In this document: positions 4,959 to 22,178 of the stretch, piece after piece | Layout: every line of letters begins with the position of its first letter | How positions within the stretch are numbered: the stretch's first letter is position 1 | DNA from: a virus | Virus record (IMG/VR): IMGVR_UViG_3300045538_000481 | Coordinates: 1 to 22,340 of that record | Reading direction: 5' to 3' (one strand) | DNA: 22,340 nt | Translations under genes and position numbers: made by a program | The notes under the pieces: generated by a model | Told to the model about the DNA's origin: nothing | Database searches by the model: none | The model's input: the letters and a program-made list of their open reading frames with translations, nothing else

Positions 4959-7886
4959 ATGCCGAAGTTCGATTTTTTCCCAAGTTTCAACGCCGGTGAA
5001 GTCTCCCCCTTCATCGACGCCCGGACGAGCTTGGAGAAATACCGCAGCGCCTGCCGCACGCTGGAGAACTTCCAAATCCTCCCCTACGGCGGCGTCATCC
5101 GCCGCCCCGGAACGCAATACCTCGGCACGACCAAGTCGGCAACCAGCCAGACCCGCTTGATCGGGTTCAACTTCTCCACCACCACCCGCTTCCTTATCGA
5201 AATGGGCGTGGGCTACATGAGATTCTGGAACCCCGCCACGGGAGCGCAGGTCAATGCCGCCACACCCGCCGCATGGGCCACGGGTAACATCTACGCAGTC
5301 GGCAATTATGTGCGTGAAAGCAGCAAAAACTACTACTGCGTCACTGCCCACACCGCAGGCACATTCGCCACCGACCTTGCCGCGAACCGCTGGGTCGAGC
5401 AATCGATCCTTGAGATTCCCACCCCCTACGCCGCCTCTGCACTGCGCGAAATCCAATTTTCCCAGATCAACGACATTATGTATTTCGCTCACGCGAACTA
5501 CCTGCCACACAAACTCTCCCGCCTTGCCGACAACAACTGGACATTCGCGCCAGTGGTCTTTGACTACCCGCCGCTTCAAGACCAGAACGCCACCGAGCAG
5601 GTCGTGAATATTTATCCAAACCCAGACATTTGGGTCGCTGGCACGAACTACATCCTCGGCGACTATGTGCGTCCTCCCACATGGGTCGCATCCACCGCCT
5701 ACGCCGTGGGCGACATCGTGCTGAGTGGCAGCATTGCCTATAAGTGCATCACGGCAAACACCGACGCCACATTCACCGCAGCTAAATGGAGCGCACAGAA
5801 CCAAGCCAACCAGGCATTTTACTACTACGCGATGAGCGCCCACCGCGCTGGGTCGAACTTCGGCGTGGATCAAGCAGCGGGCAAGTGGTCGCAATTCCCG
5901 ATTCCTCTCAATGAAATGGGAAAATACTCGGTCAGCGCCGGGTCTGGACTTTTCCCATCCTCCACGGTGGGTTCGCAGGTTGAACTGAAGTGGCAGAAAA
6001 ACAATTTCTACGCCGAGCAACTCATCACAGGGAACAATGTTTCCGATACTTTGGCCGTGGAAGGCGGGTGGGATTTCAGCACTTCCGGCACATGGACGGC
6101 AACCATGCAAATTCTGCGCGTTCCCTCGGATGTCTTCTCGGCTGGGCGCATCGTGGCCACCGCCACGCGAAGCGGCACGGTAGTGAGCGTCTACCACCCC
6201 TACCACGGTTGGAACAACGGAGACCGCATCTGCGTGGGAGACGGTCGGTCAACAAACAACTACGCCACACACGGGGCGACCATCACCGTCACCGGCACGC
6301 ACACCTACACCTACGATGTTGGATCAAACTCCCAGACCGGCTACCTCGACATTTACCCGGAGAACCTCACAAAAATGGAAATTGTGCGGGAATACTCCGT
6401 GTCGGCAGACCGCAATATCATCACTAGCGGAACGGAGTCCACGCGCTGCGGTCTAAAAATCCGCATTCTGGATTGGGTTTCCGGCACCGGAACCATTGTC
6501 CAGAAAGCCCGCTTGGAAACCGACACCAAGGTCACCGGCGGCATCGCCACCATCGTCGGCTCCGCGCAGATCAATGTGGACAAGTGGCTCGGCGAGGGAC
6601 CGCGCAACCAGCGCAACACCAAGTTCTGGGCATTCGGCGCATTCTCTTCCACTCGCGGCTACCCCCGCTCGGTCGCCATGCACGAACAACGCCTGTGCTT
6701 TGGCGGCACATCCTCCCAGCCAAACACCGTCTGGTGCAGCGCGATTGATGATTTTGAGAACTTCAAGACCGGCGCGACAGCCAGTGATGCGGTCCAATTC
6801 ACGCTCGCAGCCTCCGAGGGAAACCGCATCAACTGGATGTATAGCCAATCCCAACTCCTGATCGGCACAAGCGGCGACGAGTGGACGATTGGCAGCGCCG
6901 ATTCCACGCAGGCGCTCTCGGCAACGAATGTGCAGGCGAACCGGCAATCCTCCTACGGGTCAAAATATATGAAGGCCGCGCTGGTGAACGATGTCCTCCT
7001 CTTCGTCCAGCGCAACGGACGCAAGGTGCGTGAGTTGGTCTACGAACTCAACAAGGACGGCTGGGTCGCGCCGGACCTCACCTTGCTCGCGGAACATATC
7101 ACCAATGGCGAGATCGTGGAGGTCGCCTACCAGCAACAACCCGATGCCGTGCTGTGGTGCGCCCGGGGAGACGGCACGCTCATCGCCATGACTTACGAGC
7201 GCGACCAAAAGGTAGTCGGATGGCACCGCCACACGCTCGGCGATGCCGATGTGGAGTCGGTCGCCACCATCTACGGAAATGGAACTGAGGACGAACTTTG
7301 GATGGTCGTGAAGCGCACCGTCTCCGGAGCAGACTACCGCACCATCGAGCGGTTTCCTCTCCTCTGGAGAACCCGATTCGACGAAGAATCTTCGGCAAAC
7401 TACCGCTACCTCGACGGCCATGTCGCCTTCGCCTCCGGCGCGGCAAATCGCACGGTCCCCGGCCTCGCGCATCTGGAAGGAAAAACCATCGCCGTGGTGC
7501 AGGATGGGCAGTCTCCCATCACCCGCACGGTCGCCAGCGGAGCGATCACCGTTCCTGCCGCAGCCGCCGGTTACCTCGGCCTGCCCTACACCTCCACGCT
7601 CCGCCCCATGAAGCTCGATGCCGATTTCGAGGACGGCACCGCGCAGTCGCGCAAGAAGCGCATCCACCAAGTCGTCGTCCGCACTCTGAAGAGTCGCGGC
7701 GGCGAAGTTCGCACAAATAATGGAACATGGTATGCTCTCGCCCCGACGACCACCACGGGCGACCAAAAGATCATCCTCGGCGGAGCGTTCGGCATCGACG
7801 CCGATGTCGATGTCCGGCAAACCGAACCTTACCCAATGTGCATCATCTCGATCCTTCCCAAGTGGGACGCCTACGGCAATGAGTGA
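4959..7886 (+). CDS. Tail tubular protein B-like (T7 gp12-type nozzle) protein
   Basis: 975 residues, longer than T7 gp12 (about 794). Family hallmarks run the whole length: FNAGEVSPFIDARTSLEKY (10-28), ENFQILPYGGVIRRPGTQY (36-54), an 'EIQFSQINDIMYFAHANYLP..LSRL' segment (164-189), GYPRSVAMHEQRLCFGGTSS (nt 6658-6717), LLIGTSGDEWTIG (nt 6856-6894), and the late RNGRKVRELVY...LLAEH...VLWCARGDGTLIAMTYE block. Three or four 'W-x-x-x-x-x-Y-x-x-G-[D/N]-x-V...Y' copies resembling carbohydrate-binding modules are inserted (105-147 and two or three within 224-311). In T7 this protein forms the lower nozzle that contacts the cell surface. The ATG has no Shine-Dalgarno and follows the previous stop by 1 base. 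The next gene overlaps its last 8 bases. Confidence 0.88.
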   Translation: MPKFDFFPSFNAGEVSPFIDARTSLEKYRSACRTLENFQILPYGGVIRRPGTQYLGTTKSATSQTRLIGFNFSTTTRFLIEMGVGYMRFWNPATGAQVNAATPAAWATGNIYAVGNYVRESSKNYYCVTAHTAGTFATDLAANRWVEQSILEIPTPYAASALREIQFSQINDIMYFAHANYLPHKLSRLADNNWTFAPVVFDYPPLQDQNATEQVVNIYPNPDIWVAGTNYILGDYVRPPTWVASTAYAVGDIVLSGSIAYKCITANTDATFTAAKWSAQNQANQAFYYYAMSAHRAGSNFGVDQAAGKWSQFPIPLNEMGKYSVSAGSGLFPSSTVGSQVELKWQKNNFYAEQLITGNNVSDTLAVEGGWDFSTSGTWTATMQILRVPSDVFSAGRIVATATRSGTVVSVYHPYHGWNNGDRICVGDGRSTNNYATHGATITVTGTHTYTYDVGSNSQTGYLDIYPENLTKMEIVREYSVSADRNIITSGTESTRCGLKIRILDWVSGTGTIVQKARLETDTKVTGGIATIVGSAQINVDKWLGEGPRNQRNTKFWAFGAFSSTRGYPRSVAMHEQRLCFGGTSSQPNTVWCSAIDDFENFKTGATASDAVQFTLAASEGNRINWMYSQSQLLIGTSGDEWTIGSADSTQALSATNVQANRQSSYGSKYMKAALVNDVLLFVQRNGRKVRELVYELNKDGWVAPDLTLLAEHITNGEIVEVAYQQQPDAVLWCARGDGTLIAMTYERDQKVVGWHRHTLGDADVESVATIYGNGTEDELWMVVKRTVSGADYRTIERFPLLWRTRFDEESSANYRYLDGHVAFASGAANRTVPGLAHLEGKTIAVVQDGQSPITRTVASGAITVPAAAAGYLGLPYTSTLRPMKLDADFEDGTAQSRKKRIHQVVVRTLKSRGGEVRTNNGTWYALAPTTTTGDQKIILGGAFGIDADVDVRQTEPYPMCIISILPKWDAYGNE

Positions 7887-8293: not shown

Positions 8294-9094
8294 ATGTCCT
8301 CCGTTACAGCTATTGCCCTTACCACGGCTTCAGTCCTTGCCACCGCCGCATCGACCGGCATCGCGATGTATTCGGCCAACGAGCAAAGCAAATCGCAAGC
8401 CGCGATTGCCGAATACAACCGGATAGCTAACGAGCAGAACGCCTCATGGCAGCGCATGGCAGCGGAGCGGGCCGCGCAGGCGGAGCAGTTCAATTCGCAG
8501 ATGGCCATGTTCAACGCGCAGTCGCAGGCCGACCAGGCGAACATGAACAATGTTCTTGTTCAGCAGCAATCCCAGCAACTCCGCGCCCAAGCCGATGGCG
8601 AGGATCGCCAAGCCCGCGAGCAAGCCGACCGCATCCGCGCCGAGAAGGCCCGCATCCTCGGACTCCAACGCTCCCAATACGCCGCCGGGGGTGTGACCAC
8701 CGAGGGATCGCCTCTTGCAGTTTTGGCTGATACCGCCAATATTTACGAAATGCAGGTCGCCGATGCTCGTCTCCTCGCCAATCTCTCCTCCGAGAAAAAA
8801 CGCTACGAGGCCGGGATGAACGAACTCGTCGGCGACTTCAACTTGAATTCCGAACTCTTCGCCTCGGCGATGAACAAAAAAGCCGCGCAGATCAGTTTCA
8901 ATGATGCCCAGTTCGCCGAGAAAGCCGCTGGGGCCGGTTACCGAATCAATATGCGCCAAGCCGCGATTGAACAAATGGCAGGCAACGCCACCGCCCGCGC
9001 CACCGCCATTGGCGGCTACTCCGCGCTGGCCAGCGGCATCGGTTCTGTCGCCAACACCGGAATGACCTACTACGGCTACAAAGCAAAATCCTAA
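8294..9094 (+). CDS. T7 gp14-like internal virion core protein
   Basis: 266 residues. It starts with a hydrophobic segment (7-28, alanine/threonine-rich), then a long Gln/Ala-rich helical region (30-130), the family-typical YAAGGVTTEGSPLAVLADTA (about 129-148) and a following 'DARLLANLSSEKKRYE' helix, and ends in a small hydrophobic, glycine-rich tail. This matches phage internal virion protein B / gp14-type proteins, which are ejected and form a channel in the outer membrane. Its place directly after the GNAT protein and before two larger ejection-type proteins reproduces the T7 13-14-15-16 order. The start follows the previous stop by one base; no Shine-Dalgarno is seen. Confidence 0.75.
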   Translation: MSSVTAIALTTASVLATAASTGIAMYSANEQSKSQAAIAEYNRIANEQNASWQRMAAERAAQAEQFNSQMAMFNAQSQADQANMNNVLVQQQSQQLRAQADGEDRQAREQADRIRAEKARILGLQRSQYAAGGVTTEGSPLAVLADTANIYEMQVADARLLANLSSEKKRYEAGMNELVGDFNLNSELFASAMNKKAAQISFNDAQFAEKAAGAGYRINMRQAAIEQMAGNATARATAIGGYSALASGIGSVANTGMTYYGYKAKS

Positions 9095-11076: not shown

Positions 11077-14000
11077 ATGACCCCACTCATCGACGACGAG
11101 ACAGCCACCCGCTATTGGTCTGAACGCGACACCGCCCCCGAGGCCGAGCGCGAATCCCGCAACGCCGCCCTCATAGATTGGGCCAAGGCCAAAAAAGCCG
11201 ACCAATTTCGCGCCGAGCAGCAGCAGGCCGAAAGCGCCTACACCGACCTTGATGGATGGTGGAAGGAGAATGGCGCGGGCCATGTGTTTGAAAAAGACGA
11301 GGACCGCCTAGAGGTCGCCAACCGCCGCTTCATTGCAAATCAGTTCCAGCAGACCCCCGACCAGCAGGGTCGCTACTACCCGACCTACCGTGACGAGTAT
11401 CTCCAAAAGACCTTTGGCAAATCCGGACTCTCCGAGACGGACACATTCAACCTCATCCGCGATTCGCTCACCGCCCGCAAAGAAACCGAAGCGGCACTTC
11501 GCGAACTCCCCGGCGCATTGGCCAAAGAAATGTTTTCCAAAATCGGAGAGGGCAAGCCGTTCGACGAACATGAATCGCCGGATTTCGCGCAACGCTATCT
11601 CCTCTTCCAAGATTGGAAAGACCGCCACGCCGACAAACTCGGCAAGCTCCCCGAGGGCTGGGAGTCGGCCATGCTCGACCGAGCCGTCAAGCTCCAAGAC
11701 CGTGCCGAAACGATGATGCGCGACCTCGCGCCGGAATCCAAACGCGCCTTCGATACTCTCATGGCATTTACCCGGCCCGAGGATGCCGCTGGTCTTCCGC
11801 CAGCCAACCGCGCCGATGTGGAGAACATCGCAAAGGAATTCGCCAAGCTCACGCCCGAGGATCGCCAGAATATCTACTCGACCCTCTACTACGCCGCCGA
11901 GGCCGATGGCGCTGGCATGGGCAAGGGGTTCTTTGAAAAGATCGGCGAAGGCATCGCTCGCGGTGGTGTGAATATCTACAACGATGCCGAGATGACCGCG
12001 CAGGACCGGCAGGCCCGCCAGAACATTTCTGAATTCCAATCCCTGCTCGACAAGCCAGAGCAGCAACCTGGCCGGATGCAGACCGCCCAGAGCATCCAAA
12101 TGCAACGCGACCTCGCGCAAAAAGGAGTTGAGGAAAACACCCAACGCCTCGCCGAACTTAAAGCCCTTCGCGAAATCCGGCAGATCGCTGACGGCACCAT
12201 CGACCCCATCAAGACCGAGATGGATGGAGTCATTGGGTCAATCGTGCAAGGGGCATACGATTTCTCGCAGTCCGCTGCCTACACGGGCATGGCAATGATT
12301 CCGTATGTCGGAGTGCCTGCCGTCATGGGCGCTCTAACGAACAGCAACTACCTGCGGATGCTTGATGCCTACCCAGACATGGATGCCGATGCCGCATTGG
12401 CCATCTCTGCGGCAATTGCCGCTCCGCAGGCATTCATCGAACGATTCCAAGGCCGCGCCCTTGTTGGAAAATCTTCCACGCTGAATTCGTTGATGAAGAA
12501 GATGACCGATGTCCGCATCCCCATTGCCGGTCGTCTCGCCATCGGCTACGGGGCCAATGTCGCTTACCAGACGGTGCAAGAATGGGCGCAAGAAGCCATG
12601 CCAGTTGCCGCTGACCAACTTGCCGCCGCCATCCGCGAAGACATGCCAGAGTTCGACGCCGAAAAAGCGTGGGGTGCTTACAGGGAGCAGATGCCGGACA
12701 TCTTTTTCTCCATGCTCTGGGGTGGACTCATCGGCACCGGAACCAGCACATTCCGCGAGTTCAAGCGCAATGGTCAATTTGAACGCTCGCTCGGTGAACT
12801 TGAAATGCAAGGCGTCACCGGCGAGGCCGCGCAGGACATCGCCGCCGAGCAAGACCTCGACGCCGCCAATACCAAATTCCGCGAAGCATGGGACAAGCGC
12901 ACCCCGGAAGACATCCAAGCAGGCATCGCCAAGCGAGCCGCCCAACTGGAAGCCGCCCGCTCCACCCAGCAAAACCCCGAACTCCCCGTTCGCCGGATCG
13001 AAGAAAACGCAGACGGCACACTCACCCACATCATTGAGAAACCGGACGGCACCGTCCTCTACCGCACCAACGATTCCGACGCCGCCGACACGGCCTTTGT
13101 TAACATCACCGGCATGGTCGGGCGGTCTCAACTGACCGGCACAACCCGTGGCATCGTTGAATCCCTGCAATTCATCGACCAAGTCAACCAAGCCGCCGGT
13201 CGCGGCGAGGATGTCCAGAAACTCCTGCTCGATGACGCTCCGCGCAACCTGCTCGATGAATACGAGGCGAACCCCACCGAGCAAAACCTCAACAACCTTT
13301 TCGAGACCGTCCGCTCCCAAGGCCAAGACATCAACGAACCCGCCGAACTTGCCAACTTCCCCGTCCTTGCCAGCAACCAGGGTGCTTTGGTCGATGGAGT
13401 TTTCCGGTCCATCATCAAAATTCAAGACGGCGCAACCGGCGACAAGGTCATGCGCGACTTCTCGCAGGACAACCTCAAGCGAGCCATTGCCGAGGGTCGC
13501 ATCACGATGGATTGGGTTCGCGAAAACCTCAACCAAGTCATCCCGCTCATCGAGAGCGAGCGCAACACCGGCCCCGCACTCCGCACCGAGACCGACACCG
13601 ATGTCATCGAATCCTTCTCCGATGTCGCCGTGGCTTACATGACCGGACGCATTCGCGAGGAACAGATTCCGCAAGGATTCCGTGGGTTCCTGCGCCGGAT
13701 GGCCATCATCGTCAAAGACATCTTCCGCCGCGCCTACCGGCTCAAGCGAGCCATCGCCGAGGGCAAGGTGGATTCCAACTTTGAAGGCTTCCTCGCCGAA
13801 TCCGTGGGACTCAACCAGCAGACGATGGTCGATACCACCCGGGAGCGAGCGAGTGGTGATATCATCACTAATGGCGGACAGATGCTCATGGACTTCTCCC
13901 TCGGCTCCCGCGCCAGCGCAGTTTCGACTGATACTCCCTCCATCCGCGCCAGCAACGCCACGATCACCGGCCCCGCGAACTACAGCATCGGAGCATTCCA

Positions 14001-17000
14001 CGGAACGCCGCACAAAGTGGACAAGTTCAGCCTCGACAAAATTGGTATTGGCGAGGGAGCGCAGGCTTATGGTTGGGGGCTTTATTTTGCCGAGAATATC
14101 ACGGTCGCCGAGAACTATGCTCGCGGATATCGACCCGACCACCTCAACACTCCAGAGCGGGTCGCGGCTGAAGCACTACGAATCTGGAGAGGGAATGTTG
14201 AGAATGCTATTGATGACATTAAGGCGAATGACATTTCTGGGATTACGCTTACTCCAGAGATGCAGTCCAGTGCTGTTGATCTACTGAAACGAGGAGAGAG
14301 ACCAAAATCCGGAAACCTCTACACCGTGGAACTCGATGTGGACGATGCCGACCTGCTTGATTGGGATAAGCCATTGAGTGAGCAGAGTGAAAAGGTGTTG
14401 AATGCACTTGATGGAATCAAATTCTGGAATAACGAAACCCAAAGTTTTGATATTGCAAAAAACATATCCTCAACCGGAGGGGAGGCATACTTTGATCTTC
14501 AATCACGATTTAACAATTCTCCAAAAACAGCATCTGATCGATTTTTAAAAGCAGGCATCCCCGGCATCCGCTACCTCGACGGCGGAAGTCGCTCGGTCAA
14601 TGCTACAGACGACCGGCTTTTAGAACTTGCCGAGAAAAACAACGGCAACAAGGAAGCCGCCGTCGATGAGTTCATGCGAAGTGTCTATGACACTCCAAAG
14701 GCCAAGGAGAAAATGCGAAGCGACCTTCTTCGCAACTTTCCAGAACGCACATCCAACTATGTCGTCTTCGACGAGAACCTCATCAAGATCACCGAGGAGA
14801 ACGGCAACCGCATCCCCGCATCGCAAGCTCTCGCCGCGCCAGCAACCGGCGCGACCAACTACAGCATCGGCATGACGGTCGCCCCGCTGCGCCGAGATTC
14901 ACTTTCCGAACTCAATAAAAAGGAAATGCAGAAGCGGGCTTCGTCTGCAAAATTCATCCACCTCCAGCAAGTCATCGATGATGTCGCCAATGCGTATGGA
15001 GTAAAAATTGAATCCCGCCAGCCGGTCATCGGTGGATGGGTTGAAAGTGGGCAGATCAGTCTGGAGGTTCCAGAGGCTATTCTCTTCGACACGGATGACC
15101 TTGAGATGGCGCAGGAGATGGCGGCAATCGTCGGAGCCTCGGCCCCGGAACTGCAAAATGCCGTCATGCTCTGGAAGGATGACGATGCCGGGAAAGATAC
15201 CGTGCTGGAATTCCAAGCCAAAGGAGCCGACTCGGCCTTGGCGGTTGCCAAGGATTTGAATGCGGCGGGGCTGAATGGATTCACCTATGACACGAAAAGC
15301 CGGAAGTTTTCGCTTGTTCTGGCAGGACTTCCAACCGAAGCTATTACCAAAGTCTATGACTACATCAACGACCAAAGCGCGACCGGCAACATTAGCACTC
15401 GCGGAGGCACTCAAGCGAGGGCGGGAGTTGCCGCCTTCCCATCCGAGAGCGACTATCGAGGATATCTGCAAGGCGCTCGGAGCCGAGCGGATTTACTCCA
15501 ACAAGGGCAACGCGAAGCCCTCCTCGATGTTGTTGATCGGGCGGAACGGCGTGTAGATCGCTATGCCGCTGCTCTGAAAATTTCGGAGCAAGCCAAGAAA
15601 ATCCAGAAGAAGCTCAAGCGCCCCTCCACTTCGGCGCTGGCTATCGAGTCCGAACTCAAGGGCAAGCAGTTCGATAATATCCGCCAGCTTGGGCTATACC
15701 TCGACGCCCGGTTCAACAAGGTCTTCGGCAAGCCATCATTTGAGATCGGCGGGCAAGAGGGCATCGATATCGCATCGGATGCGTTCGTCTACGACATCAT
15801 CGACGGGCTGGCCGGTGATGGCTCCGGTATGGGGTGGTATGACGAGCGTGTGCAGGAAACAATCCGCGAACTCTCCAAATTGCACCCAGAGTTTGCAACC
15901 GATTCCAACGCCCTTGCAGTCTACATTGGCATCCTTGCCACGACATCGCAGGGCTACACGGTTGTCGAAAATTTCAAGCAGGCCAACAAGGTCTACAACG
16001 AATACAAACGAACCGGCAGAATCCCGACCGATTTTAAATTTGCGAAATCTTCGGACCCAATTAACTCCAACCTCGCCCAAATCCAAGGTCTCATCGATGA
16101 GCATGGATTAGATGGCTACGCTGAATTCATGGACCAAGAGGTCACCGGGCAGGCGCTCCGCGACCAGTTCGGGAAAACACCAACCGGCGTGACCCTCAAA
16201 GACACGGTGCGCGGCAATCGTGTCCTTGGTCCCAAGATTGGTAGCTTCTTCAACAACCTGCGCGGGCAGTTCGATACCATCACGATGGACCTGTGGTATA
16301 CCCGCACGATGCATCGGTTCTTGGGTGAAACGGTTGTCCCGCTGGATTCCGACAAGATGCAGAAGGCCATCACGAAATTCCGAGAGGAATTGAAAAAGGA
16401 TGGAGTCCGCACCTATGGGATCGACCTCACAGAGGCGCTCAAGGACGACGAAGCCACGGTGCAGGCGGCTCTCACGCTTTTCCAACGCTGGGCGCGAGGT
16501 GACAATGACTACACCGAAAAGGGATATTTCAAATTCCCCGATGGCTACAAAATAGAGAAAGCCGCTCGCGGAATCTTCAGCATCGGCGGAATGAAAGGCG
16601 CTCCTCAAAACAAGACGCACCGGCAGTATTTCGCCAAGGTGGTTTTGGAGGCAAAAGCCAAACTTGCAAAACTTGGCATGAAGCTCACTGAGGCCGACAT
16701 GCAGGCCATCATCTGGTATCGCGAGAAAAACCTTTTTGCCCGCACTGGGGTGGCCAACGCCGCAGCCAAGCCCGCAGACTATTTGGATGCCGTCATGGTT
16801 GCCCGATCCGGAGCGCAAGTGCAGGAGGATGTAGACCCCGCAGATTTGGAAGCAGAAGATGGAGACACCAACTACTCCATAGCCAGCCAGTCGGAGATCG
16901 ACCGGGTGAACAAGGCGCTCGGCGGCATGAACCGAGGCCCGGACGAACGACTCAAAGTCTACGAGCGGGCCAAGCAGAAATTCTCCAAGCTCATGTCTTG

Positions 17001-19959
17001 GAATTCCGACGAACTCGGCGCGATGGCCGACACCGGCTCCGACGAGACGCAAATCCGCCGCAACCAACTTCTGCAAGGATTCGGTGAACTTGACGCGATC
17101 CTTCAAGTTCTGCCGCCCGAGGTGCGTGGGCGCGTGGGCGGCTACACCGTCCTCGCCAACATCGCTCCGATGGATGTCTTCAAGGACGGGGTGAAAGTCT
17201 CCGAATCCAAAAACATGGACGGCGCGATCATCTCGGCATGGATGAAGGAAGGCCAAAACATCGGCCAAGCAGGCAAGCAGGTCTCGCTACCACCAGGCTA
17301 CACGGCCAAGGAAAACCTCGCCAGCAAGCGAGCCGACAAAGCCCTCGCCGACTTCTTCCGCGACCGCATCAAGAAAATCGACACCGAACTCGAAAAGGTG
17401 CTGGTGCGCGAATACACCGAGGCCATCACCAAGGCCGTGAAGCAATCCCGCCCGAAGGCCGGTGACAACGGAGTCCGCAAATCCACGCTCGGAGCCGAGA
17501 CGCAGAAGTTCGCCGACATGGTCCAACGCGCCACGCTCCTCGATGACGAGGCCACGCCAAGGCGCATGGCCGAGATCGAGGCCGCGCTGGCCAACCCGGA
17601 CGCCACCGCCGAGGACATCTCCGCGCTCTCCGAAGAGTGGTCGATCCTCAACACCTTTGGCGACCTCGACAACCGATCCTCTGAGACGCTCGCGCAGGGA
17701 CTCGACTGGCTCAAAGGCCAACTGCAAATGGGCCGCGAGGCATGGCGCATCAAGGAGCAGGCCCGCATCGACGAGCAACAAGCAAGGGCCGCAGCGACCA
17801 TCGAATGGCTCGGCAAAAGCACAGCCAAAAAACGCTTCGCCGACAAGGGACTCATGCAACGCATCGCCGAGGTCGGGAACAACTACCTCCTCGATCACGC
17901 CAGCTTTGAGCAGTTCGTCACCGCCATGCTCCCGCCGGAGATCGCCGCGAACTTCTCCGAGCGTCTCCGCAAGGCCGACATGGCCGCGCAATCCTCGGAA
18001 ATCCGCGATGGCAAAGGCATCCTCGATGCCGTCCGCGAAGGTGCGAAAGCTGCCAACATGTCCGCAGGCGATGCCATGCTCTGGCTCAAGGGAGATCAGA
18101 AAAATGCCGTAGCCTACCTTGAAGGCCGCAAGGTAAAGGACGAGCGCATCGCCATCGAACTCGCTCAAAAGATCGTCACCGGCGAGGCCGACCGCAGCAA
18201 GCTCACCGATGCCGATATCGAGACGCTCCGCAACGAACTCGCCACACTCCCTGCGGACACGCAAAAAGAATTCGTCACCATCAAGCGGGTCATCTTCCGT
18301 GGCGAGGATGTGAAGCTCGACATGTCCCGCGCCAAGGCCATCCAACTCCTGCTCTCATGGAACCAACCGGATGTCCAAATCAAGATGCGAAAGGAAGGAT
18401 GGACCGATGAAAGCGCCACCGACCTCAAGGCGCTCGTCAACGACCCCGTCTCCCGATCCGTTGTGAGCTACCTGCAAAGCCTCTACGGCAAAGGCGCAGG
18501 CATCGTGAATCCGGTCTACTCTCGGATGTTCGGAATGACCATGCCGCAGGTCAAAAACTACGCTCCCACCCGCTTCCTCAACGCCAAAGACTCAAAGGAC
18601 ATCGGCCTCGACGGGTCGCCTACAGCCACCGGCACGACTCCGGGCTTTGCCAAAACCCGTGTCACCCACTCGGCGAAGATCGCTCCGGAGGATGCCCTCA
18701 CCGTGGCGCAAGGCCACATCGCCCAACAAGCGCACTGGGTCCACTTCGCCGAACTCGCCCGCGAATTCCGCGCACTGCTCTCCTCACCGGAAGTCCGCGA
18801 ATCCCTCAAGCAAAAGCACGGAGATGCCGTCCTCAAAAGCGCCGAACTCTGGGCAGACCAATTGGAACAACGAGGAGGCAACAAAGCCCGCGAATCCGCA
18901 TGGCTGAATCCAATCCTCGGCACGGTCCTTTCCGGCAAGGCCGTCTCCTCACTGGGATTCAGCTTGAAGACCCTCGCCATGCAGTTGGACAACACGATCC
19001 GCTTCGGCCTCGCCCTCGACATGCGACAGATCGTCTCCGCTCTCTCCAACCCATCGACAATCGTCGAAGACATCCAGACCGTGTGGGAATCCGATGCCAT
19101 CCAGAACCGACTCCAAGGTGGAGCAACCGCCGAGGCGAGATTCCTATTCTCGCGCTACGCAGGCAAACCAAACTTCGGCGCAAAGATTGCCGAGGCATCG
19201 ATGACTCCGATCAACTGGCTCGACTCCGCCGCGACCTCGATCTCATCGGCCATCGTCTACCGGGCCAACCTCAACGATGCCCTCGCAGCGGGCATGCCGG
19301 AGAACCTCGCCAAACAAGCCGCCCTCGACGCCGCCAGCCAAGCCATCTACCGATTCGCGCAACCGGTCAGCTTCGGACAAAAATCCATCATGGAAAACAA
19401 CGGGAATGTTTTGGCAAAAACCTTCTTCCTTTTCATGTCCGATCCTCGCCTCAAAACCGCCATCCTCGCCGATGCCGCTCGCGGGCTGGCCACCGGGCAA
19501 GGCAACGCCAACGAACACATCCGGCGAATCCTTGTGGTCGAAACGATGGCCGTCCTTTCCCATGTCGTAGCCAGCGCCTTCCGCGATGTCTTCTCCGATG
19601 ACGACGACGAGGAAATCTGGAACCTCGGCGGCTTCGCCAAGGCCATTCTCCTCGCCCCGCTGCAAGGGTTTTTCTTTGCAGGCACGGTCGGCGAACTCGC
19701 CATCTCCAAGCTCACCGGACAGAAAACTTTCAACAGCAGCACACAGAACCCACTACTCTCCGCCATGGAGCAAGCGGTGCGTGCGGGAAATAATCTCGAC
19801 GATGTCTTCAACCTCGACGACCCGGATGCCATGCTCAAGGAGTGGAACAACATTTTCCGCTCAATGGCTCTTGCCCCATGGTTGGCCGCTCCCGCCGTCC
19901 TGCTGAACATGGTCAAACCAGTGTATGGCCTCTACCAGAACGCCACCACCGAAGACTGA
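11077..19959 (+). CDS. Giant multidomain (polyvalent) internal virion protein with ADP-ribosyltransferase-like module
   Basis: 2960 residues, against 1318 for T7 gp16, whose place it takes. Parts: 1-938 is mostly helical with hydrophobic stretches at about 385-450 and 539-556 and a segment (839-930) typical of polyvalent-protein-associated regions. 968-1260 is an ADP-ribosyltransferase-like module (AFHGTPH at 973-979; AYGWGLYFAEN at 997-1007; SNYVVFDENLI at 1226-1236), as in the ART-PolyVal family. 1261-1931 is of unknown function, including GWYDE near 1587 and GPKIGSFFNNLRGQFDTITM near 1717. 1932-2960 is helical, with a hydrophobic C-terminal section around an acidic SDDDDEE (2840-2846). NYSIG/NYSIA motifs stand at 968, 1261 and 1932, and a variant (DFSLG) at 939. 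No in-frame stop or frameshift is seen. Position and size suggest it is packaged and ejected. Polyvalent proteins in general act on host or competitor targets; the target here is unknown. Confidence 0.83.
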   Translation: MTPLIDDETATRYWSERDTAPEAERESRNAALIDWAKAKKADQFRAEQQQAESAYTDLDGWWKENGAGHVFEKDEDRLEVANRRFIANQFQQTPDQQGRYYPTYRDEYLQKTFGKSGLSETDTFNLIRDSLTARKETEAALRELPGALAKEMFSKIGEGKPFDEHESPDFAQRYLLFQDWKDRHADKLGKLPEGWESAMLDRAVKLQDRAETMMRDLAPESKRAFDTLMAFTRPEDAAGLPPANRADVENIAKEFAKLTPEDRQNIYSTLYYAAEADGAGMGKGFFEKIGEGIARGGVNIYNDAEMTAQDRQARQNISEFQSLLDKPEQQPGRMQTAQSIQMQRDLAQKGVEENTQRLAELKALREIRQIADGTIDPIKTEMDGVIGSIVQGAYDFSQSAAYTGMAMIPYVGVPAVMGALTNSNYLRMLDAYPDMDADAALAISAAIAAPQAFIERFQGRALVGKSSTLNSLMKKMTDVRIPIAGRLAIGYGANVAYQTVQEWAQEAMPVAADQLAAAIREDMPEFDAEKAWGAYREQMPDIFFSMLWGGLIGTGTSTFREFKRNGQFERSLGELEMQGVTGEAAQDIAAEQDLDAANTKFREAWDKRTPEDIQAGIAKRAAQLEAARSTQQNPELPVRRIEENADGTLTHIIEKPDGTVLYRTNDSDAADTAFVNITGMVGRSQLTGTTRGIVESLQFIDQVNQAAGRGEDVQKLLLDDAPRNLLDEYEANPTEQNLNNLFETVRSQGQDINEPAELANFPVLASNQGALVDGVFRSIIKIQDGATGDKVMRDFSQDNLKRAIAEGRITMDWVRENLNQVIPLIESERNTGPALRTETDTDVIESFSDVAVAYMTGRIREEQIPQGFRGFLRRMAIIVKDIFRRAYRLKRAIAEGKVDSNFEGFLAESVGLNQQTMVDTTRERASGDIITNGGQMLMDFSLGSRASAVSTDTPSIRASNATITGPANYSIGAFHGTPHKVDKFSLDKIGIGEGAQAYGWGLYFAENITVAENYARGYRPDHLNTPERVAAEALRIWRGNVENAIDDIKANDISGITLTPEMQSSAVDLLKRGERPKSGNLYTVELDVDDADLLDWDKPLSEQSEKVLNALDGIKFWNNETQSFDIAKNISSTGGEAYFDLQSRFNNSPKTASDRFLKAGIPGIRYLDGGSRSVNATDDRLLELAEKNNGNKEAAVDEFMRSVYDTPKAKEKMRSDLLRNFPERTSNYVVFDENLIKITEENGNRIPASQALAAPATGATNYSIGMTVAPLRRDSLSELNKKEMQKRASSAKFIHLQQVIDDVANAYGVKIESRQPVIGGWVESGQISLEVPEAILFDTDDLEMAQEMAAIVGASAPELQNAVMLWKDDDAGKDTVLEFQAKGADSALAVAKDLNAAGLNGFTYDTKSRKFSLVLAGLPTEAITKVYDYINDQSATGNISTRGGTQARAGVAAFPSESDYRGYLQGARSRADLLQQGQREALLDVVDRAERRVDRYAAALKISEQAKKIQKKLKRPSTSALAIESELKGKQFDNIRQLGLYLDARFNKVFGKPSFEIGGQEGIDIASDAFVYDIIDGLAGDGSGMGWYDERVQETIRELSKLHPEFATDSNALAVYIGILATTSQGYTVVENFKQANKVYNEYKRTGRIPTDFKFAKSSDPINSNLAQIQGLIDEHGLDGYAEFMDQEVTGQALRDQFGKTPTGVTLKDTVRGNRVLGPKIGSFFNNLRGQFDTITMDLWYTRTMHRFLGETVVPLDSDKMQKAITKFREELKKDGVRTYGIDLTEALKDDEATVQAALTLFQRWARGDNDYTEKGYFKFPDGYKIEKAARGIFSIGGMKGAPQNKTHRQYFAKVVLEAKAKLAKLGMKLTEADMQAIIWYREKNLFARTGVANAAAKPADYLDAVMVARSGAQVQEDVDPADLEAEDGDTNYSIASQSEIDRVNKALGGMNRGPDERLKVYERAKQKFSKLMSWNSDELGAMADTGSDETQIRRNQLLQGFGELDAILQVLPPEVRGRVGGYTVLANIAPMDVFKDGVKVSESKNMDGAIISAWMKEGQNIGQAGKQVSLPPGYTAKENLASKRADKALADFFRDRIKKIDTELEKVLVREYTEAITKAVKQSRPKAGDNGVRKSTLGAETQKFADMVQRATLLDDEATPRRMAEIEAALANPDATAEDISALSEEWSILNTFGDLDNRSSETLAQGLDWLKGQLQMGREAWRIKEQARIDEQQARAAATIEWLGKSTAKKRFADKGLMQRIAEVGNNYLLDHASFEQFVTAMLPPEIAANFSERLRKADMAAQSSEIRDGKGILDAVREGAKAANMSAGDAMLWLKGDQKNAVAYLEGRKVKDERIAIELAQKIVTGEADRSKLTDADIETLRNELATLPADTQKEFVTIKRVIFRGEDVKLDMSRAKAIQLLLSWNQPDVQIKMRKEGWTDESATDLKALVNDPVSRSVVSYLQSLYGKGAGIVNPVYSRMFGMTMPQVKNYAPTRFLNAKDSKDIGLDGSPTATGTTPGFAKTRVTHSAKIAPEDALTVAQGHIAQQAHWVHFAELAREFRALLSSPEVRESLKQKHGDAVLKSAELWADQLEQRGGNKARESAWLNPILGTVLSGKAVSSLGFSLKTLAMQLDNTIRFGLALDMRQIVSALSNPSTIVEDIQTVWESDAIQNRLQGGATAEARFLFSRYAGKPNFGAKIAEASMTPINWLDSAATSISSAIVYRANLNDALAAGMPENLAKQAALDAASQAIYRFAQPVSFGQKSIMENNGNVLAKTFFLFMSDPRLKTAILADAARGLATGQGNANEHIRRILVVETMAVLSHVVASAFRDVFSDDDDEEIWNLGGFAKAILLAPLQGFFFAGTVGELAISKLTGQKTFNSSTQNPLLSAMEQAVRAGNNLDDVFNLDDPDAMLKEWNNIFRSMALAPWLAAPAVLLNMVKPVYGLYQNATTED
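13978..14856 (+). other. ADP-ribosyltransferase-like module inside the giant protein
   Basis: This part codes for residues 968-1260, bounded by two NYSIG motifs. H975 (in FHGTPH) and Y1003 (in WGLYFAEN, followed at 1011-1014 by AENY) align by eye with the H and Y of the PARP-like H-Y-E triad. The position of the third residue, before YVVFD, is N1227. An unusually A+T-rich insert (about 14170-14560; 19 G+C in bases 14401-14460) lies between the NAD-binding part and the C-terminal GIPGIRYLDGGSRSVNA segment. Module identity is from motif recognition, not from a search. Confidence 0.75.
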
Positions 19960-20168: not shown

Positions 20169-20413
20169 CCCCGGGCCGGATCGCCGCAGGGATGATCATG
20201 CTGGGCTGGATTTTCCTCGCCCTCGCATTCCTTACATCCTGCGTCAGCGTTCCGATCCCGCCATTCGGCGACCGAGTCGGCGAACTCGGCAACCTGCAAC
20301 TCAGCGTCAGCGTGAAATACATGCCGGTTCAAAATCCCGACATTCCCGCAGACGACAACCTGTCTTATGCCTGGTCGAAATTCGGCGAGGCAAAAGCCCT
20401 CAAGGACAAATGA
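20165..20413 (+). CDS. Small lipoprotein of the lysis cassette, possible outer-membrane spanin
   Basis: 82 residues from ATG 20165, overlapping the previous gene's stop. An N-terminal signal segment (MIMLGWIFLALAFLTSC, 10-26) ends in a lipobox L-T-S-C, with C26 as the lipidated cysteine. The mature part is short (56 residues), begins VSVPIPP and ends with charged residues. Small lipoproteins between holin and endolysin are often spanin components (Rz1-like). No separate Rz-like inner-membrane partner is seen, so it could be a single-component spanin or just an unrelated prophage lipoprotein. The lipobox is clear; the spanin role is inference. Confidence 0.65.
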   Translation: MTPGRIAAGMIMLGWIFLALAFLTSCVSVPIPPFGDRVGELGNLQLSVSVKYMPVQNPDIPADDNLSYAWSKFGEAKALKDK

Positions 20414-20955
20414 CCCGACTGCTCGCCGAAATCGCAGCAGCAGAAGTCGGGGTCCGCGAGATCGGAGGCAACAACAACGGATCCAAAATCCGCGACTACC
20501 AGCGGGCCACCAACCTCAAGCCAGCTTCGTGGCCATGGTGCGCTGCGTTCGTTGATTGGTGCATCCGCGAGTGGCTCGCCCGCCCCGGCGTCCGCGACTG
20601 GCTCAACCTGCAATCCTCTACTCCCGAGGAATGGCGACCAAAGACCGCCCTCGCATACGGGTTCCTCGGCTGGGCGAAGTCCCGCCCCAAGACCTCGGTC
20701 ATCCTCCACGAACGCGACATGGCCCGACCCGGCGACATTGTGGTTTTCGATTTCAGTCATGTCGGAATCGTTGAGTCTGATTCCGGCCACCAGATCATCA
20801 CCATCGAAGGCAACACCAATGGCCGAGGCGACCGCGACTCCGAGTCCGGTGACGGGGTCTGGCGCAAAGCCCGCCAGAAGACAATCGCCCGGAATTTCAT
20901 CCGAATCCGCCCTGTCTTGGCACTTTCTGGCACTCCTTCCGTAAATCGTTCGTAG
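20410..20955 (+). CDS. CHAP/NlpC-P60-type endolysin
   Basis: 181 residues from ATG 20410 (ATGA overlap; AAGGA lies just upstream). Early residues AAAEVGVREIGGNNNGSKI are the usual entry of phage CHAP-type peptidases. Catalytic candidates are C44 in WPWCAAFVDWC (41-51), H117 in FSHVGIV (115-121) and E133/N135 in TIEGNTN (131-137). The PGDIVVFD strand (107-114) precedes the histidine, as usual. Expected to cleave cell-wall peptide or amide bonds at lysis. There is no signal peptide, so export depends on the holin. The last codons carry two TTGGCACT-like repeats that belong to the probable attP, so the C-terminal tail (about 169-181) may be shaped by DNA sites rather than by enzyme function. Confidence 0.82.
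   Translation: MTRLLAEIAAAEVGVREIGGNNNGSKIRDYQRATNLKPASWPWCAAFVDWCIREWLARPGVRDWLNLQSSTPEEWRPKTALAYGFLGWAKSRPKTSVILHERDMARPGDIVVFDFSHVGIVESDSGHQIITIEGNTNGRGDRDSESGDGVWRKARQKTIARNFIRIRPVLALSGTPSVNRS
20917..20934 (+). repeat. Left arm-type repeat pair (TTGGCACT / CTGGCACT)
   Basis: Two direct repeats with 10-base spacing, lying inside the last codons of the endolysin gene. They match the pair at 21137-21154 apart from the first base of the second copy. Probable integrase arm-binding sites. Confidence 0.6.
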
Positions 20956-20969
20956 TCAGTAGCCGTTTC

Positions 20970-21026
20970 TCGACTCGAAATCGAACGCAGGGCAACCTGC
21001 CGTGGGTTCAAATCCCACCCCTTCCG
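20970..21026 (+). pseudogene. 3' fragment of a tRNA-Ser(CGA) gene, probable att core
   Basis: It folds as the last part of a class II tRNA. The anticodon loop CTCGAAA (20974-20980, anticodon CGA) sits on four base pairs TCGA/TCGA. A variable-arm hairpin GCAGG-GCAA-CCTGC covers 20987-21000. The T arm GTGGG-TTCAAAT-CCCAC covers 21002-21018. The acceptor strand CCCTTCC (21019-21025) is followed by discriminator G. The fifth anticodon-stem pair fails (C20969 against A20985), and no D arm or GGAAGGG acceptor strand lies upstream, so the 5' half is absent. Such fragments restore a host tRNA gene after integration; the similarity beginning at the anticodon stem suggests crossover in the anticodon loop. 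Confidence 0.75.
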
Positions 21027-21029
21027 CTC

Positions 21030-21055
21030 CTCCAGTAAAGCCTCTGGAGCCTTTT
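21030..21055 (+). terminator. Possible Rho-independent terminator
   Basis: A 6-bp stem CTCCAG (21030-21035) and CTGGAG (21044-21049), with an 8-base loop, is followed by CCTTTT. The T run is short and interrupted, so termination may be weak. It sits just after the tRNA fragment and could end lysis transcription, or be the terminator of the host tRNA gene carried within the att region. Confidence 0.4.
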
Positions 21056-21136
21056 CCCAAGCGGGTCTCCGGTCACCCCTCATCTTTTGCTTCGTGTTTT
21101 TTTCTGTTGCGTGGTTTTGCTTTTGAGGGGATGTTT

Positions 21137-21163
21137 TTGGCACTAGTTGGCACTGACTGCCAA
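21137..21163 (+). repeat. Right arm-type repeats (two direct, one inverted)
   Basis: TTGGCACT occurs at 21137-21144 and 21147-21154, and ACTGCCAA (21156-21163) is an inverted copy with one mismatch. They sit 17-43 bases before the integrase start, so binding here could also repress the integrase promoter. Probable integrase arm sites. Confidence 0.6.
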
Positions 21164-21179
21164 AACACCAACCAACAGA

Positions 21180-22178
21180 ATGAAACACAACCCCTATGCG
21201 GTGCGGTTTGAAGATTCGCGAAATCGATGGGTGCTGGATTTGAAAGCATCCCATTTCGGGGATCGGAAACGGATGTTTTTTGAGACCGAGTTGGAGGCGC
21301 ATTCGGAGGGGGCGCGGTTGGTGGATGTGTTGCGCGAGAAAGGTCGCGAAGGAGTGAGGAGCGAGGAGGGCGGGATGTCGGTGGCCGTGGCGACCCGGAT
21401 GTTCACGGCGGAGAACGCGACGAAATCGAAATCGCATTTCGCAAAGGTCGAGATGTTGTGCCGGGAACTGAACTCGAAATGGTCGGGTCCATTGTCTGCC
21501 ATTGAGCCGGTGGCGCTGACTCGGTGGCTTAACCAGACCTCGGATTCGCCGACCACCCGGGCGATGTGGTTCCGCTATGCTCGGATGTTTTTCCGATGGG
21601 CCGCGAGGATGAGGTTCATCGAGCGGTCGCCTGTCGAGGGGATGCGGAGTCCGAAAGCGACCCCAGCGCGAAACATTTTAACGGCCTCGCAAATGAAGGA
21701 ACTGCTCAAAGCGCCGATGCAGGATGATGTGATGGCGTTGCTCTTGCTGGGCGGGTTCGCGGGCCTGCGGACCATCGAGGTGGCGCGGATGAATTGGGAG
21801 GATGTGGATTTCAAATCCAAGCAAATCCATATTCGGCCCGAGGTCAGCAAACAGACCACGGGAATGCTGGAGCGGGTCGTGGACATGACTGAGCCGCTGG
21901 TGAAACGGAGGGAGTTTTTTAAGGGCAAAAAAGGTGTGATCGTGAAAGGATCGCTGGAGGCGTTGCATGAGGCGCGGCGGCGCGTGGCGCTAGGGCTGGG
22001 CTGGGAGGGATGGCCAGAGAATGCGCTGCGGCATTCGTTCGCGACCTACCACTTGGGTCGCTGCGGGAATGCGGGATTGACGGCCTACCAAATGGGTCAC
22101 ACCTCGCCAGCGATGGTGCAGAGAGTCTATGCGGTTCCCGCCGTGCGGGCTGATTGGAAGGCGTTCTGGAGGATTTGA
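21180..22178 (+). CDS. int: Tyrosine integrase
   Basis: 332 residues from ATG 21180. A TTG at 21147 in the same frame lies inside the arm-type repeats, so I reject it. N-terminal part: an arm-binding-like segment with basic and aromatic residues (1-40), then a core-binding (SAM-like) helical domain about 66-155. Catalytic domain about 165-332: R197 in GLRTIEVARMNWEDVD (195-210), candidate lysine K224, box II ENALRHSFATYHL (280-292) with R284, H307 in QMGHTSP and Y317 in QRVYAVP. The usual histidine of H-x-x-R is N281. It probably integrates the phage into a tRNA-Ser(CGA) gene through the adjacent attP. Base use is opposite to the structural genes (G-rich, G-ending codons on the same coding strand). 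The leader has no Shine-Dalgarno. Confidence 0.88.
   Translation: MKHNPYAVRFEDSRNRWVLDLKASHFGDRKRMFFETELEAHSEGARLVDVLREKGREGVRSEEGGMSVAVATRMFTAENATKSKSHFAKVEMLCRELNSKWSGPLSAIEPVALTRWLNQTSDSPTTRAMWFRYARMFFRWAARMRFIERSPVEGMRSPKATPARNILTASQMKELLKAPMQDDVMALLLLGGFAGLRTIEVARMNWEDVDFKSKQIHIRPEVSKQTTGMLERVVDMTEPLVKRREFFKGKKGVIVKGSLEALHEARRRVALGLGWEGWPENALRHSFATYHLGRCGNAGLTAYQMGHTSPAMVQRVYAVPAVRADWKAFWRI
22168..22172 (+). promoter_or_regulatory. Strong Shine-Dalgarno GGAGG
   Basis: GGAGG lies 9 bases before the ATG at 22182, inside the end of the integrase gene. It is the only textbook ribosome binding site in the window and it supports the start of the last, truncated gene. Confidence 0.6.

Follow-up and report, generated by a model that had tools for sequence, protein, structure and literature searches.

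For lambda, the integrase bridges a core and arm sites on both sides in a fixed geometry, to which the site described here can be likened. The lambda integrase intasome is a 240-bp complex (PMC4880445). In the Cluster K mycobacteriophages CrimD, Anaya, Adephagia, and Pixie, two pairs of arm-type repeats of about 11 bp are placed around a tmRNA/tRNA-identical core, int adjoins attP, and a putative terminator lies between the core and the right pair (PMC3203893). The arm consensus varies between close phages of this cluster and is paired with N-terminal substitutions in the integrase; the attP sites of L5 and Giles, cited in the same paper, are further mycobacteriophage examples (PMC3203893). 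Among podoviruses, the T7-like cyanophages P-SSP7 and S-TIP37 carry int and a tRNA attP that matches host tRNA alleles, and their integration was shown experimentally (PMC8776855).

The window, that is, the whole stretch of DNA that was analysed, is a complete IMG/VR viral record of 22,340 bp. Podovirus-type tail genes were recognized (a phrog_376 tail protein, E 7.8e-178; a phrog_394 tail protein; and an internal virion protein), and the right end carries a CHAP endolysin followed by a tyrosine-recombinase integrase (Int). Among annotated tail proteins, the closest came from Pelagibacter podoviruses (about 35-38% identity), and none of the phage collection records encoded a relative of the integrase. 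A single 2960-aa ORF (11077-19959) is probably a giant internal virion protein, and its residues 974-1016 gave a weak, sub-threshold ADP-ribosyltransferase (polyvalent proteins) match. The tail proteins at 7-1764 and 4959-7886 have CBM_5_12 carbohydrate-binding matches, one above and one below the Pfam cut-off, and the former also contains collagen-like Gly-rich repeats. A tRNA-Ala(GGC) called by ARAGORN on the minus strand (8951-9040), inside the internal virion protein ORF 8294-9094, is probably spurious.

An intact attP was found at 20917-21180, adjoining int, and its features are collected in Table 1. We regard it as very likely that this stretch is the attP of a podovirus-type Verrucomicrobiota phage in its un-integrated state, with Int bridging arms and core and with the host tRNA-Ser(CGA) gene as the target. 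This reading is drawn from the sequence itself: the layout, the in-register conservation, the concerted change of four arms and the Int N-domain, the identity of sister-phage cores to host genes, and the circular relatives.

Table 1. Features of the attachment region and its neighboring genes (window coordinates)
Feature	Position	Strand	Basis or remark
CHAP-domain endolysin	20410..20955	+	Pfam PF05257 E 4.6e-9; PHROG endolysin families
P1 arm-type site TTGGCACT	20917..20924	+	-54 from core start
P2 arm-type site CTGGCACT	20927..20934	+	-44 from core start
Block GTAAATCGTTC between P2 and core	20941..20951	+	Ungapped alignment
Core: 3' part of tRNA-Ser(CGA), anticodon stem to acceptor 3' strand	20969..21026	+	Host tRNA comparison
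Anticodon loop CTCGAAA between inverted CGA/TCG	20974..20980	+	Leftmost segment common to attP and host tRNA
Hairpin with 6-bp stem, then T-rich DNA, just past tRNA 3' end	21030..21049	+	Fold
P'1 arm-type site TTGGCACT	21137..21144	+	+166 from core start
P'2 arm-type site TTGGCACT	21147..21154	+	+176 from core start; 25 bp before int start codon
Partial inverted arm copy TGCCAAAA	21158..21165	-	Absent in L017-L019
Tyrosine-recombinase integrase, 332 aa	21180..22178	+	Pfam PF00589 E 2.1e-10; phrog_1 integrase E 1.8e-30
Int N-terminal ~64 residues, probable arm-binding domain	21180..21371	+	Block identities, DNA identity profile, AlphaFold2, trees
Small basic ORF directly after int, cut by contig end	22182..22340	+	After int in most relatives examined

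The core consists of an anticodon stem-loop (CGA CTCGAAA TCG, 20971-20983), a variable arm, a T arm, and the 3' strand of the acceptor stem. No complete tRNA-Ser was found in the window by ARAGORN. Host genomes contain complete tRNA-Ser genes of the same structure as the fragment. Judged from the sequence shared with host genes, the anticodon loop is probably the 7-bp strand-exchange region. Relatives of the tRNA-Leu(CAA) type carry an identical anticodon stem. Such relatives in host-family genomes (L123, L149, and L151) have a tRNA-Leu(CAA)-like core with the same CGACTCRAAATCG anticodon stem-loop; integrases of this family thus seem to be tied to the stem-loop and not to a particular tRNA.

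The 57-base core had also been proposed to form the end of a host tRNA-Ser(CGA) gene. For the sister phages this was borne out: over 57-63 nt, their cores are identical to complete tRNA-Ser(CGA) genes of hosts in one Verrucomicrobiota family. In the MAG G001, which contains the phage contig L042, a complete tRNA-Ser(CGA) on another contig equals the L042 core over 63 nt, including its unusual variable arm, and the tRNA-Ser(CGA) pattern was matched in 19 of the 26 genomes of this family. Exact matches of 57-61 nt in this comparison set linked the cores of L011, L012, L015-L019, and L032 to the tRNA-Ser(CGA) of G126, those of L034-L037 to G403, G405, and G410, and that of L029 to G408. For the window itself no such gene was found: its own tRNA allele CAGGGCAACCTGCCGTGGG (the core allele is also denoted CAGGGCAACCTG) was absent from 26 genomes of the family, 213 of the order, and a sample of 388 from the phylum; the best host tRNA (G408) had 5 mismatches in 57. 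We infer that the host of the window phage is an unsampled member of the same family. In general, host-matched cores tie uncultured podovirus-type phages to one Verrucomicrobiota family.

The search with Int returned 40 viral loci and one genome contig. The core was present in nearly all relatives that include DNA upstream of int, and wherever a relative extends far enough, an arm pair lies on either side of it. Every one of the ~40 viral relatives that reaches the site has attP; attL or attR was found in none, and no IMG/VR relative has a complete tRNA at the attachment site. All 12 records checked whole have a single core. The near-full-length relatives have genomes of about 37.5-39.5 kb, and exact terminal overlaps of 127 bp were found in four of seven, and one more has an overlap of 59 bp (G591, G593, G595, G596, and G598). 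The overlap points differ across the map, which is the pattern that circular assemblies should give. The window contig itself does not close; both of its core flanks are contiguous in the circularly closing relatives, at 91-93% identity. As these relatives assemble as circles with both flanks contiguous, the DNA on either side of the core is phage, and the sequence to its right is not chromosomal. Together with the single core and the lack of a complete tRNA, the contiguous flanks indicate attP from un-integrated phage DNA. The circular relatives thus rule out a prophage junction and support the original view of free phage DNA, with a tandem double prophage as the sole remaining local look-alike.

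For any close relative, an attL/attR pair was not found, and the genome collection contained no prophage of the close family, its sole match being the phage contig in a MAG. In the genome G396, an integrase 45-47% identical and with its own arm pair is found next to a complete tRNA-Ser(CGA) and is followed by podovirus genes, in an attL-like arrangement; its attR was not found in the region read. Of all loci in the wider family, this one gives the strongest indication of actual integration. The region (G396:C2:1938000-1997999, L146-L148) holds a block of about 42 kb between tRNA-Asn and tRNA-Ser(CGA), with two different integrases, one at each tRNA, and podovirus structural genes. A direct-repeat partner was absent for either tRNA end of the block, and the element between the two integrases may be rearranged.

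An attP of the same anatomy could also be a working module of a phage that is essentially lytic and integrates only rarely and transiently, rather than one for stable lysogeny. The missing prophages of the close family would fit such a role, as would the T7-like cyanophages, which integrate with int and a tRNA-Leu attP while lysogens were not found (PMC8776855). However, the distant relative in G396 looks integrated, and the relatives encode RecT-like, exonuclease, and O-like replication proteins as well as an excisionase-like HTH_17/phrog_66 protein just below the Pfam cut-off. In almost every relative whose sequence extends that far, the gene for the latter lies 0.7-1.5 kb downstream of int (L023 8012-8203); it is known from relatives, the window contig ending at 22340. 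A transient role is unlikely in our view, though it deserves to be kept in mind.

The small basic ORF after int (MPYANKKTQRKFMAKQY...) was without a family match. In L023 it lies at 7036-7218, and it is strongly conserved even in L121, whose Int is only 49% identical; it is possibly an integrase partner.

The source of the window could have been a tandem double prophage, as the internal junction of such a pair forms a complete attP-like site, and a circular assembly made from one would look locally identical. This is improbable, given the absence of attL, attR, or a complete tRNA noted above for the viral relatives. In addition, the phage contig in G001 is separate from an intact, unoccupied tRNA-Ser(CGA) elsewhere in the same MAG. 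An attP of un-integrated phage DNA remains the preferred reading.

The four arm-type sites of this attP are arranged as TTGGCACT tt CTGGCACT on the left and TTGGCACT ag TTGGCACT on the right. The word YTGGCACT (TTGGCACT or CTGGCACT) occurs exactly four times in the 22,340 bp, always on the plus strand (20917, 20927, 21137, and 21147), whereas 0.73 copies are expected in the whole window. The start-to-start spacing is 10 bp in both pairs. When the region 20860-21203 was shuffled with dinucleotides preserved, 0 of 5,000 shuffles gave an 8-mer pair (at most 1 mismatch allowed, spacing 8-12) that recurred from one flank of the core to the other. The layout in the initial annotation, with arm-type sites flanking the tRNA-Ser core, the endolysin to one side, and int to the other, was borne out, and the exact word positions agreed with its 10-base spacing in both direct pairs. 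An inverted copy on the right had also been described; a partial copy is present, but it is not conserved. Since it was lost in L017-L019, it is not an essential part, and its function is doubtful. The left pair overlaps the final 13 codons of the endolysin ORF. Between P2 and the core, the GTAAATCGTTC block (consensus g.AA..cgtTg) is conserved at the same register in each of the two arm-word clades and is a candidate host-factor or excisionase site.

Arm positions were counted from the core start CGACTC. The pairs lie at -54/-44 and +166/+176 in the window clade and at -53/-43 and +166-168/+176-177 in a clade with the word GGACAAC. All relatives with both sides have -54/-44 or -53/-43 together with +166-169/+176-178, and L030 and L033 depart from this merely by an extra or variant copy. 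The rule includes two host-family contigs (L123 and L151) with Int about 46% identical and a tRNA-Leu(CAA)-like core, in which GGGCAAC is found at -53/-43 and +167-169/+176-178. A third host-family contig, truncated on its left side, carries GGGCACA/GGCACAA at about +166/+176, and in G396 the word GGACACA lies at +179/+188, farther from the core by roughly one helical turn. The in-register words TGGCACT, GGACAAC, GGGCAAC, GGACACA, and GGGCACA have in common a G, then C and A. This set of five words that differ in sequence but share a scaffold provides material for studying the recognition code.

The start of int at ATG 21180 is most likely, and a TTG at 21147 was set aside. Int residues R197, K224, R284, H307, and Y317 are invariant across 20 relatives; at residue 281, Asn appears to replace the usual first pentad His in all 20 aligned relatives. 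Compared with L020-L022, the window Int has 31% identity in residues 1-30, 53% in residues 31-60, and mostly 80-100% beyond. At the DNA level, identity drops at 20900-20980 and 21060-21380 and is 82-95% across the core (at 20980-21060). In a tree of residues 65-332 (CB+CAT), the window clade stands beside L020-L022 on short, well-supported branches, whereas in a tree of residues 1-64 long branches separate the arm types. From these trees, the GGACAAC type is probably ancestral, and the window clade probably acquired its different N-domain a single time, together with changed words to the left and right of the core. AlphaFold2 predicted a beta-beta-beta-alpha N-domain (pLDDT 87.5), a fold described for arm-binding domains (PMC8138268), and the modeled domain is a probable arm-binding domain. 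It gave nothing significant in Pfam (E up to 5) or by Foldseek against the PDB, where the best match was an AP2 domain (E 0.31, not significant). The full-length Int model, poor past residue ~160 and with a mean pLDDT of 55.8, was left out.

Because the arm words on both core sides changed with the N-domain, in what amounts to a domain swap made by nature, the repeats are marked as Int arm sites, and the short words are very probably the DNA read by the integrase. The left arms are not contiguous with the gene segment for the N-domain; thus, hitch-hiking alone fails to explain the match. A single recombination spanning everything, with a host-selected core, is possible. As the switch is essentially one event, it is strong anatomical evidence and not statistics over many events. 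When the domain alone was used for a scan for the donor, nothing matched beyond its own clade. The family offers a strong evolutionary test, without experiment, of the words read by the Int N-domain and of attP rigidity.

The repeats could instead be operators of a transcription regulator or elements of the int promoter. The position of the right pair so close before the int start codon would suit them, and regulatory and arm sites often overlap (PMC2951348). However, a matching pair sits on the other side of the core, where the endolysin gene ends, the positions are fixed relative to the tRNA core, and the word covaries with the Int N-domain on both sides, so that such a role has little to recommend it. 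Tandem elements at one tRNA gene are common, and the window might then be a prophage end (attR) beside a second, independent element at the same tRNA, a reading with a negligible chance of being right and already refuted by the contiguous flanks in circular relatives (91-93% identity) and by the identical arm word on either side of the core.

Between L008 and L011, 7 of 35 positions differ in the variable and T arms, in contrast to 2 of 206 in the arm and spacer segments that flank them, with zero differences within a core type. A similar exchange was seen in the other clade (L031/L033 versus L032). By this pattern, the tRNA part is exchanged as a cassette. One possible route is integration at the anticodon loop followed by excision via identity further toward the tRNA 3' end. 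Alternatively, other phages could be the partners in homologous recombination, a process for which RecT-like and exonuclease genes are present in the relatives. More tentatively, the N-domain and P' arm may have been replaced as one piece and the P arm brought into line, forming an exchangeable arm-code module within a fixed 220-bp arm-to-arm geometry. Recombination and int control would thereby become orthogonal to relatives on the same tRNA and host, with the tRNA half swapped in parallel as a cassette tracking the host allele.

The proposed mechanism, which extends to protein binding, the crossover point, the role of the hairpin, int autoregulation, and the occurrence of integration, is a model built on these observations. 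The Int N-domain would bind the direct-repeat arm sites P1/P2 and P'1/P'2, while the core-binding and catalytic domains would bind the anticodon stem-loop of the tRNA-Ser core, giving a single complex with a fixed geometry. By strand exchange in the anticodon loop, the phage would enter the host tRNA-Ser(CGA) gene, and the host 5' half joined to the phage 3' half would rebuild the tRNA on the int side. The prophage would then have int at one end, just downstream of the tRNA and in the same direction, and the endolysin at the other.

The hairpin after the tRNA may insulate int. It folds at -8.8 kcal/mol (z -2.3), and hairpins different in sequence are equally placed in L027, L030, L034, and L123. 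Compared with shuffles, the fold ranks above most of them in the window and in L027, L034, L123, and L149 and is weak in L017 and L042. A consensus terminator scan missed it, and alignment-based analysis gave no covariation because the hairpins do not line up by alignment column, so that each was folded singly. On its fold and position, it is a candidate terminator between the rebuilt tRNA and int. KplE1 IntS is similar in that its arm sites lie close before int, with int downstream of the tRNA in the same direction (PMC2951348). With the right arm pair so near the start codon, this analogy predicts that Int represses its own gene, that is, negatively autoregulates int.

Compared with lambda, no IHF or Xis sites were identified in the window attP. 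The lambda core is not a tRNA gene and its arm sites are not two equal direct pairs, and the window differs in both. Like P-SSP7 and S-TIP37, the window family is podovirus-type, with int and a tRNA attP matching host alleles; the cyanophage site is a tRNA-Leu with attP downstream of int, and arm sites are not described in the cited part of that source (PMC8776855). A further difference is that the replication genes of the window family look lambda-like (RecT, O-like). Cluster K is similar in that the window also has two arm pairs around the core, int adjacent, a candidate terminator, and covariation of arms with the Int N terminus. However, the phages, hosts, and targets are all different, and the two pairs are mutually inverted in CrimD, whereas both are direct in the window. 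Novelty is limited because mycobacteriophages had already shown paired arm sites covarying with Int. The change in Cluster K affects one arm position and two Int residues, whereas in the window clade it extends to most of the word and the entire N-domain, with the geometry kept. What is new is thus the different phylum and a larger, cleaner switch.
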